The notes beneath the pieces were generated by a model. That model saw only the letters and a list, made by a program, of their open reading frames with translations. It made no database searches and had not been told where the DNA came from. This document shows positions 9,765 through 14,040 of a DNA stretch of 32,745 bases, in pieces. Both the position numbers and the translations under genes were made by a program. The stretch lies in contig JAIQZR010000156.1 in the NCBI GenBank assembly GCA_021777035.1, positions 1 to 32,745 of the forward strand, read 5' to 3'. The DNA is from Candidatus Scalindua sp. Its GTDB lineage: Bacteria; Planctomycetota; Brocadiia; Brocadiales; Scalinduaceae. Each line of letters begins with the position of its first letter. Positions within the stretch are counted from its first letter, which is position 1.

Positions 9765-10013
9765 TTAATCCCTGTAATATTTGTCTTCCAGCCATCTCTC
9801 CCGGTTATACTTAATATATTCTGATATTTGGCCATACGATTTATCATTCCGTGTAACGTGTTCGTAATAACCACGCTGCCAAACCGGATGCCCAGGGGTG
9901 TTCCGGGTCTTATTTATCTGCTTTGTGACCGTTGATTTAAACCCACGAACAATTGTCGGTACTGTATTTGACGTTGGCTTGCCGAATTGTTCCGTCGTAT
10001 TGACACGTCTCAT
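9765..10013 (-). pseudogene. C-terminal relic of a REP-associated tyrosine transposase (RAYT, Y1_Tnp)
   Basis: The 82-residue frame matches the end of RAYT/IS200-like Y1 transposases. It keeps the segment GHPVWQRGYYEHV, which carries the catalytic tyrosine, and the terminal ISEYIKYNRERWLEDKYY. The N-terminal half with the HUH histidines is absent, and the fragment abuts the end of the neighbouring permease gene. The apparent ATG at 10013 therefore need not be a real start. It is a broken gene, inferred to be a remnant of the enzyme that spread the GTAG hairpins. Confidence 0.75.
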
Positions 10014-10779: not shown

Positions 10780-10812
10780 CCGCTTAGGAAAGCAGGAAAT
10801 ACAGCAAAAAAG
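10780..10812. repeat. Partial copy of the left end of the 176-bp repeat
   Basis: It begins with the exact 19-bp terminus CCGCTTAGGAAAGCAGGAA and continues with about 14 further bases that match the repeats at 11890 and 12505 at all but about three positions. It lies between the FetB-like gene and the second RAYT relic. It is either a decayed insertion or the left boundary of a larger unit ending near 11868. Confidence 0.65.
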
Positions 10813-10879
10813 ATTTTGAAACTTACACATTGTAACCATACCCACAACGAAGAATAGCTGGCATTGTAGTTAATGCTTG

Positions 10880-10945
10880 CCAAATAATATTTGTCTTCCA
10901 CCCATTCTACCGGATTATACCTGATATATTCTGATGTTATGCGAA
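10880..10945 (-). pseudogene. Second, shorter RAYT transposase C-terminal relic
   Basis: The minus strand encodes SEYIRYNPVEWVEDKYY, homologous to the last residues of the relic at 9765-10013. At DNA level 10886-10935 aligns without gaps to 9776-9825, with most bases identical. Nothing of the catalytic region remains. Together the two relics bracket the FetB-like gene in the same orientation. Confidence 0.6.
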
Positions 10946-11077
10946 TTTAAGAAAATGAAAAGGCTATCGTTCTTCAAGACTGGGGTCCCAATGGCAAGTT
11001 ATCTATAAAGTCCTGAAAAACTTCTTCAAAGTTTACGTTTTTGAAATTAACCCACACAAATATTAGGAACTAACATT

Positions 11078-11344
11078 ATGAAAACAAATATAGACTCATT
11101 CGTAAAAGCCAAGGTAAATGTCAGTATTACACCAGGAGAAATGTTAAAGACTTTGAGGGAATTACAGGGATTGAGTCAGAAAGAGTTGTCAGAAATTACC
11201 GGAATAAGCCAATCTAACATTTCAGCCTTAGAAACAAATATCCGTAACATTGGTCGAGACAGGGCACTGGTATTGGCAAATGCACTAAAGGTACACCCAG
11301 CCGTTATACTATTCCCTGATTACAGCATGGAAACTGCTGTTTAG
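11078..11344 (+). CDS. XRE-family helix-turn-helix regulator, antitoxin-like
   Basis: This is an 88-residue protein with a central Cro/CI-type HTH (TLRELQGLSQKELSEITG then ISQSNISALE, about residues 26-57). The short N-terminal segment and small size resemble antitoxins of HigA type, which repress their own operon. AGGA precedes the ATG at suitable spacing. No RelE/HigB-like toxin frame is visible upstream (10946-11077) or downstream (11345-11626), so it stands alone. It lies in the accessory island between copies of the 19-bp-end repeats. It could equally be a solitary transcription factor. Confidence 0.75.
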   Translation: MKTNIDSFVKAKVNVSITPGEMLKTLRELQGLSQKELSEITGISQSNISALETNIRNIGRDRALVLANALKVHPAVILFPDYSMETAV

Positions 11345-11626
11345 AATTTATACTTGTTTTTAAGACAAAAACTACATAATCCAAATATTCACCTAAGCTG
11401 ACAAGAATATTTAATCGTCAAACTTGTACCCTAATAATTAATAAAAAGTTAGCCTAACCTTCATTCTGTCAGTAACTCAACAAGTTTTTAAACAATACGA
11501 TAGGTTGTTATTGTGACTGTAGTTCGACCTGTGAAAATCGGTGTTGAATCGTCTATTCTAATAATACCGCGTGTATGATTTGGCATATTTACCGATCCAC
11601 TTCTCAATGAAACGATGTTTATACCA
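11345..11626. other. Intergenic stretch without recognised features
   Basis: This 282-bp AT-rich region lies between the XRE gene and the convergent small lipoprotein gene. No coding frame with a start and ribosome binding site, RNA gene or strong hairpin was recognised. Confidence 0.5.
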
Positions 11627-11827
11627 TTAAAACGGGGCCTTATCAACTGTATCAGCGACCTCATCAACTACATTGTGGACTGTGTTTCCTGCTACCGGTA
11701 CTGAAGAGACAACGGCGCCGGTTACACGCATGGGTACAGTCACCACTTTTGTTACGAAACATCCGCCTAACAGTATTAAATGTAAGAGCAAAACCATGGC
11801 AATCGATACAAACTCTCTTTTTTTCAT
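11627..11827 (-). CDS. Small DUF6726-like lipoprotein
   Basis: The 66-residue protein starts with basic residues (MKKREF), a hydrophobic stretch and a lipobox LLGGC with the cysteine near residue 23, so it is predicted to be a lipid-anchored periplasmic protein of about 44 residues. The mature part (FVTKVVTVPMRVTGAVVSS, then VPVAGNTVHNVVDEVADTVD) resembles small lipoproteins grouped as DUF6726. No function is known. It sits inside the repeat-rich island, and a degenerate right end of the repeat lies just upstream of its start (11839-11868). Confidence 0.72.
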   Translation of the reverse strand: MKKREFVSIAMVLLLHLILLGGCFVTKVVTVPMRVTGAVVSSVPVAGNTVHNVVDEVADTVDKAPF

Positions 11828-11838
11828 TTCTTGTTTTA

Positions 11839-11868
11839 CCTCCCTGCAATCCCTGCCTTCCTTAAAGG
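11839..11868. repeat. Degenerate right end of the 176-bp repeat family
   Basis: About 23 of 30 bases match the right terminus of the repeats ending at 12065 and 12680, including the CTGCAAT-CCTGC-TTCCT core. Its orientation is that of a right end, facing the left end at 10780. It is a decayed copy. Confidence 0.45.
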
Positions 11869-11889
11869 TATCGCTTTTAAAATTTTTAA

Positions 11890-12065
11890 CCGCTTAGGAA
11901 AGCAGGAAATTCAGGAAAAAAACTATTGTTTACTTTTTTATCTCTCCCTGCTAATTCTAAACCTCCTTGACCACCATGTCCTTTTATCCGCTCAGGAAAG
12001 CAGGAAAAAACTATTGAATATAATTTCTTTGCTTTTCTTCCTGCAATTCCTGCTTTCCTAAGCGG
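11890..12065. repeat. 176-bp repeat copy A with 19-bp terminal inverted repeats
   Basis: The unit starts with CCGCTTAGGAAAGCAGGAA and ends with its perfect reverse complement (12047-12065). A third arm with one mismatch lies inside at 11988-12006, in the same direction as the left end, so 11988-12065 can form its own long hairpin. Copy B at 12505-12680 is the same length and differs at one base (A at 12013, G at 12628). It resembles a MITE-like non-autonomous element. No transposase gene of matching type is visible in the window. Confidence 0.85.
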
Positions 12066-12073
12066 CTCTTTCT

Positions 12074-12442
12074 TTACAAGATTACTCTTTTGATTTCTAA
12101 CGTCGGTTTTGAAAAATTCAGGATTAATCCATGTTTTTGATTTGTCGCTTTCAAATACGATCGAACTATTGCAAAATGTTCATTCGTCACTTCTTTTGTC
12201 GCCTTTAATTCAACAACCAATTTATTAAAAGCAAATATATCCAATCTATGTTTACCTATTTCCTCATTCTTGTAAAAAAGTGGTATTTCCCACTGTTTTT
12301 CATAGGGAATATGACAAGATTCAAATTCTATTGAAAGCGCATTTTCATAGACTGACTCAAGAAAACCGGGACCAAGGGTCTTATGCACTTCAATTGCCGC
12401 CGCAATAATCCTATCCGTCAGGTCTTCATGTTCCAGCTTCAT
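12074..12442 (-). CDS. GxxExxY protein (PDDEXK_3, PD-(D/E)XK nuclease-like)
   Basis: The 122-residue protein carries the family signature GFLESVY (GxxExxY) within LGPGFLESVYENAL near residues 24-37. A PD-(D/E)XK-like core follows: HRLDIFAF, then KLVVELKAT with the paired Glu-Leu-Lys. The last part (YLKATNQKHGLILNFSKPTLEIKRV) is also typical. The family is assigned to a nuclease superfamily by fold, but no cellular function is established to my knowledge. The ATG at 12442 follows a GGCGGG. The gene is enclosed by the two 176-bp repeats, with its stop only 8 bases outside copy A, so gene and repeats look like one cassette. Confidence 0.88.
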   Translation of the reverse strand: MKLEHEDLTDRIIAAAIEVHKTLGPGFLESVYENALSIEFESCHIPYEKQWEIPLFYKNEEIGKHRLDIFAFNKLVVELKATKEVTNEHFAIVRSYLKATNQKHGLILNFSKPTLEIKRVIL

Positions 12443-12504
12443 TTTTCCCGCCTTTCTAACTTCATTAAGAAGCTACGATTGTTGTTATACTAAAGAGATT
12501 ATTA

Positions 12505-12680
12505 CCGCTTAGGAAAGCAGGAAATTCAGGAAAAAAACTATTGTTTACTTTTTTATCTCTCCCTGCTAATTCTAAACCTCCTTGACCACCATGTCCTTTT
12601 ATCCGCTCAGGAAAGCAGGAAAAAACTGTTGAATATAATTTCTTTGCTTTTCTTCCTGCAATTCCTGCTTTCCTAAGCGG
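12505..12680. repeat. 176-bp repeat copy B with 19-bp terminal inverted repeats
   Basis: It is the second copy of the element at 11890-12065, in direct orientation and identical apart from one base. The terminal inverted repeats are at 12505-12523 and 12662-12680, with the internal arm at 12603-12621. Both copies are followed by CTCTT. Its right end contains the stop codon of the nicotinate phosphoribosyltransferase gene (12673-12675). With copy A it brackets the GxxExxY gene. Confidence 0.85.
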
Positions 12681-14040
12681 CTCTTGTTTTGTCCCTGACC
12701 TGCCTCAACCTTTTGCTGATAGTCACCGGGTATTCATTCTTACAATCCAAGTCCTTGAACTTGTCCGGTAGTTGAAAAATATTTCCCTCTGCGGTTTTCT
12801 GTATTTGTTGGACGGTTGGTATCTTACATATGATATTCCCTCTCTTCATAACCGGTCGTAAAAGTCTCTTGGCATCAAGATCTTCATCTACCAGGCCGAT
12901 TATGTCCTTTTTAAACATCCCTCTCTTATTGAGAAACCGGTAAACCTGTTTCTTTGACGGGCAAGTTGCCTTATCTTTACTTGTCTTCATTTTAGGGACG
13001 AATAGACCCTCTTTCTCCTGCTCAACCAGTTTATAGACCCCGCCGAGCGCGGGTGTGTCTTTCGAAGTGACCATCTCTGTCCCTACGCCAAATGAGTCAA
13101 TACACGCACCTTTGGCAAGCATTTTAGATATCTTGTACTCATTCAGGTCATTGCTTGCCGTAATCTTTACGTGTGACAAACCGGCATCGTCCAGTATCTT
13201 CCTTACCCTTTTACTTAATAGCGTAATATTACCACTGTCCAGCCTGACACCCTTCAGTTTCTTCCCTATCTTAGTAGCCAACTGCGCACCCTTAATGGTA
13301 TTGTATGTGTCTATCAAAAGAGTGGTGTTGTCTGGAAAAACCTTGTTAAAATCTTGAAATGATTCATATTCATCATCGTATGTCATGACCCATGAATGGG
13401 CAACTGTACCAATGGGAGGTATCCCCAACTCATAAGCCGCAAGGAGATTAGAGGTACCTACACAGCCGCCAATAAAACATGCCCTTGCGGCCAGTACCCC
13501 AGCCTGGGGGCCGTGTGCGCGCCTTGTCCCAAAATCTATTACCCCCCTGCCGTCAGCGAAATGTACTATTCTTGACGCCTTTGAGGCAACAAGTGTCTGA
13601 TAATTTATAATTGAGAGAAGATAGGTCTCAATTATCTGAGCCTCAATCATTGAGGCCGTTACCCTTACAATGGGTTCATTCGCGAAGATAACAGTACCCT
13701 CTGGGACAGCGTAGAGATCTCCATTGAAACTAAAAGCTTGAAGATAATCAAAAAATTCTCTGCTTATATTTTTAAAAACAGGAAGGCGCTTAAGATATTT
13801 TAAATACTCAGCCGTAAATTTCAGATTTTTAAGATAATAGATGGCCTGTTCAAGTCCGGCCGCTATGAGGTATGAACGTCTTTCAGGTAAGTCCCTGACA
13901 AACAGTTCAAAAGTTGATCTATGATCCATTTCACGTTCAAAATAACCGGCAGCCATAGTCAACTGATAGAGGTCAGTGGCCAAACATATATTTTCATCAG
14001 TCAAAAAGAGTGGTTTTGGGGTTCCGGTATTCTTTTTCAT
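12673..14040 (-). CDS. pncB: Nicotinate phosphoribosyltransferase
   Basis: PncB joins nicotinate to PRPP to give nicotinate mononucleotide, the entry of the Preiss-Handler NAD salvage route. Motifs are TDLYQLTMAAGYF near the N-terminus, the DFGTRRAHGPQAG loop, GTVAHSWVM, DTYNTIKGA and GVRLDSGN. The ATG at 14040 gives 455 residues. A TTG at 14073 would add 11 residues; neither has a clear ribosome binding site, and the ATG places the conserved start better. The last codons and the TAG stop lie at the border of repeat copy B, so the native C-terminus may have been replaced on insertion. nadE and nadB in the same window complete the NAD set. Confidence 0.92.
   Translation of the reverse strand: MKKNTGTPKPLFLTDENICLATDLYQLTMAAGYFEREMDHRSTFELFVRDLPERRSYLIAAGLEQAIYYLKNLKFTAEYLKYLKRLPVFKNISREFFDYLQAFSFNGDLYAVPEGTVIFANEPIVRVTASMIEAQIIETYLLSIINYQTLVASKASRIVHFADGRGVIDFGTRRAHGPQAGVLAARACFIGGCVGTSNLLAAYELGIPPIGTVAHSWVMTYDDEYESFQDFNKVFPDNTTLLIDTYNTIKGAQLATKIGKKLKGVRLDSGNITLLSKRVRKILDDAGLSHVKITASNDLNEYKISKMLAKGACIDSFGVGTEMVTSKDTPALGGVYKLVEQEKEGLFVPKMKTSKDKATCPSKKQVYRFLNKRGMFKKDIIGLVDEDLDAKRLLRPVMKRGNIICKIPTVQQIQKTAEGNIFQLPDKFKDLDCKNEYPVTISKRLRQVRDKTRAA

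Follow-up and report, generated by a model that had tools for sequence, protein, structure and literature searches.

The locus described here raises the question of why a small nuclease-like gene should lie between two nearly identical 176-bp direct repeats, and whether such repeats are the ends of something that moves. It lies in a Candidatus Scalindua contig (JAIQZR010000156.1), of which one stretch of 32,745 nucleotides, called the window here, was analysed as a whole, and an earlier note on this DNA had read it as a composite cassette that recently moved or duplicated. Comparison with related genomes provides good support, at the level of sequence, for the existence of a compact mobile unit composed of an arm, a GxxExxY gene and a second arm, of which the window holds one nested, recently duplicated member.

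Architecture of the window locus

Direct comparison bore out the two repeats that the earlier note had described: the copies differ at a single base (A at 12013, G at 12628), and each has a third, internal arm together with terminal inverted repeats that are perfect over 19 nt and identical at 30 of 33 nt (Table 1). The stretch 11988-12065 is a 78-nt palindrome in its own right, with a z of -6.1 when folded as single-stranded DNA. The arm of the window, ACCGCTTAGGAAAGCAGGAAATTCAGGAA, is about 33 nt long and stepped at about 8 nt like the arms of other loci, and matches to AGGAAAGCAGGAA with at most two mismatches number 11 in the window against 0.85 expected, a count that none of 100 shuffles reached. 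The gene-proximal arms have their outer (CCGC) ends pointing toward the GxxExxY gene, since a 176-bp nest of arm, spacer and 78-bp palindrome forms each end, and only the outermost arms (11890 and 12680) bracket the gene in the inward-pointing manner that is usual elsewhere. With 250-nt flanks, the inverted-arm score of the GxxExxY gene is 51 and that of the next-best of the 26 ORFs in the window is 25. Of the ORFs between the outer arms, the PF13366 gene alone reaches 90 aa, and no DDE transposase gene lies there; an Rfam scan of the window returned one tRNA and nothing else. An HTH_3 antitoxin-like gene (11078-11344, plus strand) lies between the arm at 10780 and the reverse arm near 11850, and could be the cargo of another arm-bounded stretch.

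Table 1. Coordinates of features at the window locus
Feature	Position	Strand	Basis or remark
RAYT-like (Y1_Tnp) fragment	9774-9995	-	77% to the C79 gene
Further arm, same family as outer arm	10780..10811	+	94% to 11890-11921
Stretch missing in G012 and G007	10780..12685	.	between UPF0014 (FetB-like) gene and pncB
RAYT-like (Y1_Tnp) fragment	10878-10931	-	61% to the C79 gene
RAYT-like (Y1_Tnp) fragment	11542-11592	-	65% to the C79 gene; weak, E 0.035
Degenerate reverse arm	about 11840..11870	-	core 11850-11862, two mismatches; remainder by eye
176-bp unit, copy 1	11890..12065	+	sequence comparison
Outer arm of copy 1	11890-11922	+	
Inner (third) arm of copy 1	11988-12006	+	
Reverse arm of copy 1	12033-12065	-	
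GxxExxY / PDDEXK_3 gene, 122 aa	12074..12442	-	profile matches
176-bp unit, copy 2	12505..12680	+	one base different at 12628
Outer arm of copy 2	12505-12537	+	
Inner (third) arm of copy 2	12603-12621	+	
Reverse arm of copy 2	12648-12680	-	

In the assembly of this genome (4.16 Mb, 204 contigs, 5.5% contaminated) the full 176-bp unit has two copies only, which lie with one extra outer arm on the same contig, and contig C5 holds one weak partial match; the unit was therefore rejected as a genome-wide mobile repeat. The idea that the repeats are the ends of a mobile cassette holds in general, in that inverted arms enclose GxxExxY genes and empty sites exist, but fails for the 176-bp unit, which is a local nest of an arm and the 78-bp palindrome. 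That GxxExxY genes are generally flanked by this repeat, a point the note had put up for testing, was not borne out by the other such genes of the genome, whose arms have different sequences. The near identity of the copies fits the recent duplication or gene conversion that the note had proposed.

The GxxExxY gene and its protein

The assignment of the enclosed gene to the GxxExxY, PD-(D/E)XK-like proteins, made earlier without searches, was confirmed by two profiles, PDDEXK_3 (PF13366; E 1.2e-36, 126 bits, curated cut-off 22) and TIGR04256 GxxExxY (E 8.5e-39, 132.5 bits, curated cut-off 35). The gene is intact over 122 codons and is preceded by a putative ribosome-binding stretch, AAGGCGGG, recognised by eye. 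Its protein keeps the GxxExxY motif and D68, E78 and K80, which we take, from the PD-(D/E)XK superfamily, to be the catalytic residues. Across 118 near-full-length loci, D68, E/D78 and K80 occur together in 117, the G, E and Y of the name motif are nearly invariant, and an in-frame stop is present in 6. Third codon positions change 2.3-3.1 times as often as first positions, an excess that argues for purifying selection on GxxExxY. The Q of a Q-x3-Y stretch (position 92) is found in 113 of the 118 loci and is replaced by I in the window copy, an alteration that may weaken its activity.

PF13366 genes are present in 50 of the 59 genomes of the order, this one included with 13 matches, and TIGR04256 genes in 70 of 149 genomes sampled across the phylum. 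A search of PDB chains with GxxExxY gave no match better than E 0.034, and a plasmid search returned 8 records, none above 60% identity. Phage origin was rejected, as the window protein had no PHROG and a related protein (L054) found no match in a phage collection; a role as a defence gene was likewise rejected, its PADLOC support amounting to one weak match (PDC-M36A, E 2.5e-4). The literature passage that names the GxxExxY family states no function in the part available, and a search of a limited collection of papers found none linking GxxExxY with repeats.

Inverted arms bracket GxxExxY genes

No AGGAAAGCAGGAA-like site (two mismatches) occurs within 800 nt of any of the other 12 GxxExxY genes of this genome, and inverted repeats of other sequence adjoin four of them (L009, L010, L013 and L016). 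These arms are built of short steps, for example CCGCAAAG ACGCAAAG or CAGGATAAACAGGAT; the steps differ from locus to locus and agree on the two sides of one locus, and a single arm sequence common to all the GxxExxY genes of the genome was rejected for that reason. With 250-nt flanks and a score of at least 24, arms were found at 10 of 13 genes in this genome and 26 of 29 in its relatives, against 3 of 77 control ORFs.

The same layout was recovered over a far wider range. Loci were collected by a protein-pattern scan with two peptide patterns in one genome per species (84,980), and the best 80 of 582 confirmed loci, which by record title cover about 15 bacterial phyla and Methanothrix, were scored by the best inverted match between 200-nt flanks; 4 of the 80 were dropped because a contig end lay too near, leaving 76. 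Within this set of the best 80 of 582, a score of at least 28 was reached by 59 of 76 GxxExxY genes and 9 of 517 other ORFs, and a score of at least 24 by 64 of 76 and 15 of 517, respectively. Control ORFs with free flanks on both sides gave the same picture (5 of 193 reach 24 and 4 of 193 reach 28). One of the two Methanothrix loci has arms (L110) and the other lacks them (L094). That many phyla and an archaeon share this layout suggests that a kind of very small mobile element has been overlooked.

The period of the arm steps peaks at 8-9 nt. The regular expression for arms matched on the left in 76 of 122 loci, on the right in 79 and on both sides in 65, and the terminus and duplication tests were therefore restricted to those 65; the 122 loci include an identical pair (L093 and L052) and a near one (L092 and L054), and so are not all independent. 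The outer end of 155 arms tends to TTCACC, of which the CC is imposed by the search pattern. Among the matches listed, arm pairs no more than 700 nt apart were, by eye, inward in 23 cases, outward in 1 and tandem in 0. For 30 arms picked regardless of genes, with partners found by a position matrix within 1 kb, the corresponding counts were 12 inward, 2 outward and 6 tandem, with 14 having none.

Some arms carry additional structure. The two arms of one GxxExxY element, L016 (G000:C93), contain an identical insert of about 30 nt at matching positions, which looks as though one arm was overwritten by a copy of the other. In L100 and L101 the inner part of both arms holds, by eye, a hairpin whose position is kept and whose stem sequence differs by side. 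Dispersed AGGAAACCAGGAA arrays with 8-nt steps, to which no gene partner is assigned, occur on contigs C5, C68, C69, C82 and C92 of the same genome (G000; loci L030, L031, L042-L048, L050 and L051, several of them near contig ends).

Arm sequence and protein lineage

Arm sequence tracks the GxxExxY protein lineage. Protein identity and arm similarity are correlated over 91 loci (Mantel rho 0.41, p 5e-4, with shared ancestry not removed), the largest rho among 2,000 permutations being 0.31, and several arm families share one genome, each paired with a different protein lineage. In G001 a shortened relative of the window gene, 81% identical, lies between inward arms of the AGGAAAGCAGGAA family, which indicates that this arm family accompanies the lineage of the window protein; 20 further stretches of the AGGAAAGCAGGAA family are mostly arm pairs without a gene or single arms.

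Across the 59 genomes, this one included, the exact arm pattern gave 531 matches against 6 for the reversed pattern. Arms are present in 44 of the 50 genomes with GxxExxY and in 1 of the 9 without, all 9 of which come from one family and together hold 1 of the 531 matches. In the phylum sample of 149 genomes, arms occur in 30 of 70 genomes with GxxExxY and 7 of 79 without (Fisher p 2.6e-6; 3.3e-5 for new genomes only), the exact pattern being missing from 40 of the 70. Three genomes are rich in arms in the absence of any match in the GxxExxY search, namely G108 (102 arms, genome 84% complete), G097 (18 arms, 92% complete) and G146 (8 arms, 76% complete), and four more have 1-2 arms each and no match. 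The contrary possibility raised in the earlier note, that the repeat is widespread with no link to GxxExxY genes, is thus half right: arms without a gene are common, and genomes with GxxExxY have arms far more often, but a few genomes have arms and gave no GxxExxY match.

Presence and absence at orthologous sites

Between the UPF0014 and pncB genes the window has 1.9 kb, delimited by the arm that starts at 10780 and the one that ends at 12680. An empty pncB site, proposed earlier as a check, was found in G012 and G007, 2 of the 13 genomes of the genus searched, where the two genes are spaced by 80-81 bp. In G010 the junction spans about 10 kb and arms are present. The junction also carries RAYT genes, one open on contig C79 of the window's own assembly (L204:2880-3506; Y1_Tnp E 2.6e-6) and one broken in G004, and fragments related to the C79 gene persist in the window. 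RAYT was rejected as the mover of the arms, the neighbouring REP-like GTAGGGGCACG repeat being unlike them by eye.

A second junction, between genes that we take from their sequence to be cusB-like and cusA-like, has four states in 11 genomes of one genus: one GxxExxY element in 4 genomes, a second GxxExxY-type element with other arms in 3, this second type deleted or interrupted in 3, and an empty site with abutting flanks in 1. The second-type element was recognised by a PF13366 match in G051 and by eye in the other genomes. At the same junction in G053, a degraded GxxExxY element (L180) is split, by eye, by a GIY-YIG-like short frame.

Two species of another genus hold different PF13366 elements at one site (L322 and L326). 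One lineage of element, 413-486 bp long and 85.5-91.4% identical, occupies six loci in six genomes, with homology that stops near the arms. Some pairs have flanks in common (L009/L010 and L016/L064), and L009 and L010, both in the genome of the window, are therefore not two insertions. At some orthologous sites, then, the alignments have the arm-gene-arm unit present or absent as a block, and related copies of it turn up at unrelated sites.

Gene-less palindromes

Arm-bearing palindromes of 54-265 bp occur at 19 further places, which include three orthologous pairs. By profile search, one of the 19 (L272, E 1.5e-26) contains a GxxExxY remnant, as do an internally deleted copy (L281) and a decayed copy (L280); reversed sequences gave none. 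Visual inspection had also suggested remnants in L265 and L268, but the profile did not support these two. The L071 element is represented by deleted copies at three places. L266 and L273, an orthologous palindrome in G030 and G058 with a right flank 85% identical, have, by eye, a spacer that is inverted between the species. The folding z is -12.5 for L276 and weaker for L274 (-2.6) and L214 (-3.5).

Empty sites were sought across the genus with queries in which the two flanks of a palindrome were fused; of seven palindromes treated in this way, four gave contiguous, palindrome-free matches. The L264 site is contiguous in 7 genomes and split in 3, the L270 site contiguous in 4 and split in 7, the L274 site contiguous in 3 and split in 7 (the halves lying on different contigs in G053), and the L272 site contiguous in 9 and split in 2, one of these two having a full GxxExxY gene and the other a 265-bp deleted copy. 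The remaining three sites had no contiguous match in the genus. In the alignments, empty sites additionally lack about 8-19 nt beyond the ACC...GGT ends.

Target-site duplications

No target-site duplication at a fixed position was found in 65 GxxExxY elements over offsets of 0-8 and lengths of 2-8, and a flexible search of 64 elements stayed near chance (8-mers, 1 against 0.28 expected). One GxxExxY site has suggestive 8-bp copies, exact in L069 and matching at 7 of 8 in L272. The flexible search gave 7 against 0.82 expected in 34 palindromes, where the largest control was 4. A palindrome family of the window's own genome, up to 98% identical (L357, L358, L359, L360, L362 and L363), has octamer arms inside GTAWCTATTC-like ends, and of its six copies three have exact 8-bp direct repeats outside those ends (AAAAATAT, GGCATTTT and ATCCAGCA) and a fourth matches at 7 of 8; L358 has no direct repeat at the expected place and L362 is interrupted by a contig end. 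This family is perhaps a MITE of another transposon that contains octamer arms, and its different ends and 8-bp duplications imply that something else can move such palindromes. GTAAY ends were present at 6 of 155 GxxExxY arms against 3.75 expected, and GTAAY was rejected as a general arm terminus for want of enrichment. Since ends of the GTAWCTATTC type are not enriched at GxxExxY arms, the 8-bp duplications favour a second mover and not the GxxExxY element.

A parallel in PF05635 genes

PF05635 genes, familiar from the intervening sequences of 23S rRNA, are present in 54 of the 59 genomes and matched 11 times in the genome of the window, and show the same design with 7-nt steps. After 2 of 40 loci were dropped for a contig end too near, inverted arms (score at least 24) were found at 35 of 38 testable genes and at 3 of 69 control ORFs, and these arms have clear period peaks at 7 and 14 nt. 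PF05635 proteins are not known to be nucleases, so such arms need not imply one.

Discussion

The simplest reading of these data, to which we give a probability of roughly 0.58, is that the nuclease itself moves the arm-gene-arm unit. The element would consist of one GxxExxY PD-(D/E)XK nuclease gene flanked by inverted arms of about three 8-nt steps, and is probably a selfish element of about 0.4-0.6 kb whose nuclease recognises its own arms. The enzyme would read the step array and cut at the arms, perhaps in an extruded or single-stranded form of the palindrome, after which repair or template switching would place the element elsewhere; gene-less palindromes would be deletion products, which may be mobilised in trans. 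In the window, an arm would first have taken up the 78-bp palindrome to form the 176-bp unit, which would recently have been duplicated in direct orientation across the gene; recombination between units, or integration of a circle bearing the gene and one unit, would be the simplest routes. It is the direct orientation of the two nests that suggests these routes and not a simple end pair.

We rank below this, as a considerably less probable account, a role for GxxExxY as a passenger between arms used by a transposase encoded elsewhere, either a DDE enzyme that leaves 8-bp duplications or one of the RAYT/IS200 type, with the gene persisting by helping itself otherwise, for example by cutting foreign DNA. 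Such a role would accommodate the arms of PF05635 genes, the 8-bp direct repeats outside GTAWCTATTC ends, the RAYT gene and fragments at the UPF0014-pncB junction, the genomes rich in arms that gave no GxxExxY match, the scarcity of detectable remnants in gene-less palindromes and the weak PADLOC match. It sits poorly with arms that track the GxxExxY lineage, with several arm families and protein lineages in one genome, with the lack of enrichment of GTAAY ends at GxxExxY arms and with the REP-like repeats beside RAYTs, which do not resemble the arms by eye.

Two further accounts appear improbable. The arms could act on RNA, as a long stem in the transcript that is cut out by RNase III like the intervening sequences (IVS) of 23S rRNA, spread being incidental. 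One well-studied site follows a stop codon and precedes a start codon in what looks like an operon, palindromes such as L276 and that of the window can fold strongly, and the IVS of Coxiella is excised by RNase III according to the sections of Hicks and Minnick (PMC4990558) consulted here; block presence and absence, deleted copies elsewhere and homology bounded by the arms are, however, left unexplained by RNA folding, and six such loci matched no Rfam family. Slightly more remote still is the view that the direct duplication in the window reflects faulty assembly, or routine recombination with no meaning beyond the element. Repeats of 176 bp that are nearly identical and 615 bp apart are difficult to assemble from short reads, this assembly is broken into 204 contigs with 5.5% contamination, and no other locus with the exact layout of the window was seen among the loci examined, unsystematically; against this, the copies differ by one base and their flanks differ on all four sides.

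Comparison with known systems places the GxxExxY element near several of them. Like the 23S rRNA IVS it is compact, with one small ORF and inverted repeats; it differs in that its gene is of a nuclease family, its arm steps measure 8-9 nt, and the window locus lies between UPF0014 and pncB genes, outside rRNA, with an ORF that matches PF13366 only and no S23p/PF05635 ORF. In the consulted sections of the Coxiella study (PMC4990558) the IVS is described as selfish, with three tandem heptamers ahead of the S23p ORF in several strains. With insertion sequences and MITEs it shares a single gene, terminal inverted repeats, deleted derivatives and empty sites, but it has no DDE or Y1 transposase inside, its ends are short tandem arrays, and no general target-site duplication was found. 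Gene-less, deleted copies with the ends of a gene-bearing partner, as expected of MITEs, are seen among relatives (L071-type, L272 and L281), whereas the 78-bp palindrome of the window has only arms in common with the gene-bearing element. REPs, described in the available part of PMC3733652 as bearing GTAG or CGTC tags and having a Y1 transposase partner, likewise consist of many short intergenic palindromes tied to one small protein family; GxxExxY arms lack these tags by eye, and the Y1 fragments near the window locus fall outside the gene unit. Intergenic heptamer repeats, TAACTGA in Beggiatoaceae (PMC4679880) and GGGAATC in Xanthomonas/Nostoc (PMC4692102), resemble the arms as short intergenic arrays with a period of 7 nt, but the passages at hand make no tie to GxxExxY, PF05635 or gene-bracketing inverted arms, and that of PMC4692102 states that GGGAATC-type repeats are generally not found with mobile elements. 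The Rpn nucleases (YhgA-like, PF04754), in the excerpt available from PMC5350276, are also a nuclease family linked to DNA mobility. Their Pfam family is distinct from PF13366. We know of no arm architecture for Rpn nucleases.

A broader proposal is tentative, and we consider it rather more doubtful than not: GxxExxY and the S23p four-helix-bundle proteins could be the two protein branches of a single, so far undescribed class of selfish DNA, in which each end is an array of 7-9-nt steps that the encoded protein reads like a ruler. The scattered heptamer and octamer repeats described from many bacterial genomes would then represent solo ends of that class, with GxxExxY acting alone as a PD-(D/E)XK 'transposase' of a non-DDE kind. 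The PF05635 parallel offers one framework for both the long-puzzling intervening sequences of 23S rRNA and the heptamer repeats of other bacteria. The reading of GxxExxY loci as mobile elements would explain the copy number of the family and its patchy spread across phyla, and would give many unexplained intergenic octamer palindromes a testable partner. Should the nuclease alone move the element, few autonomous transposable elements would be smaller.
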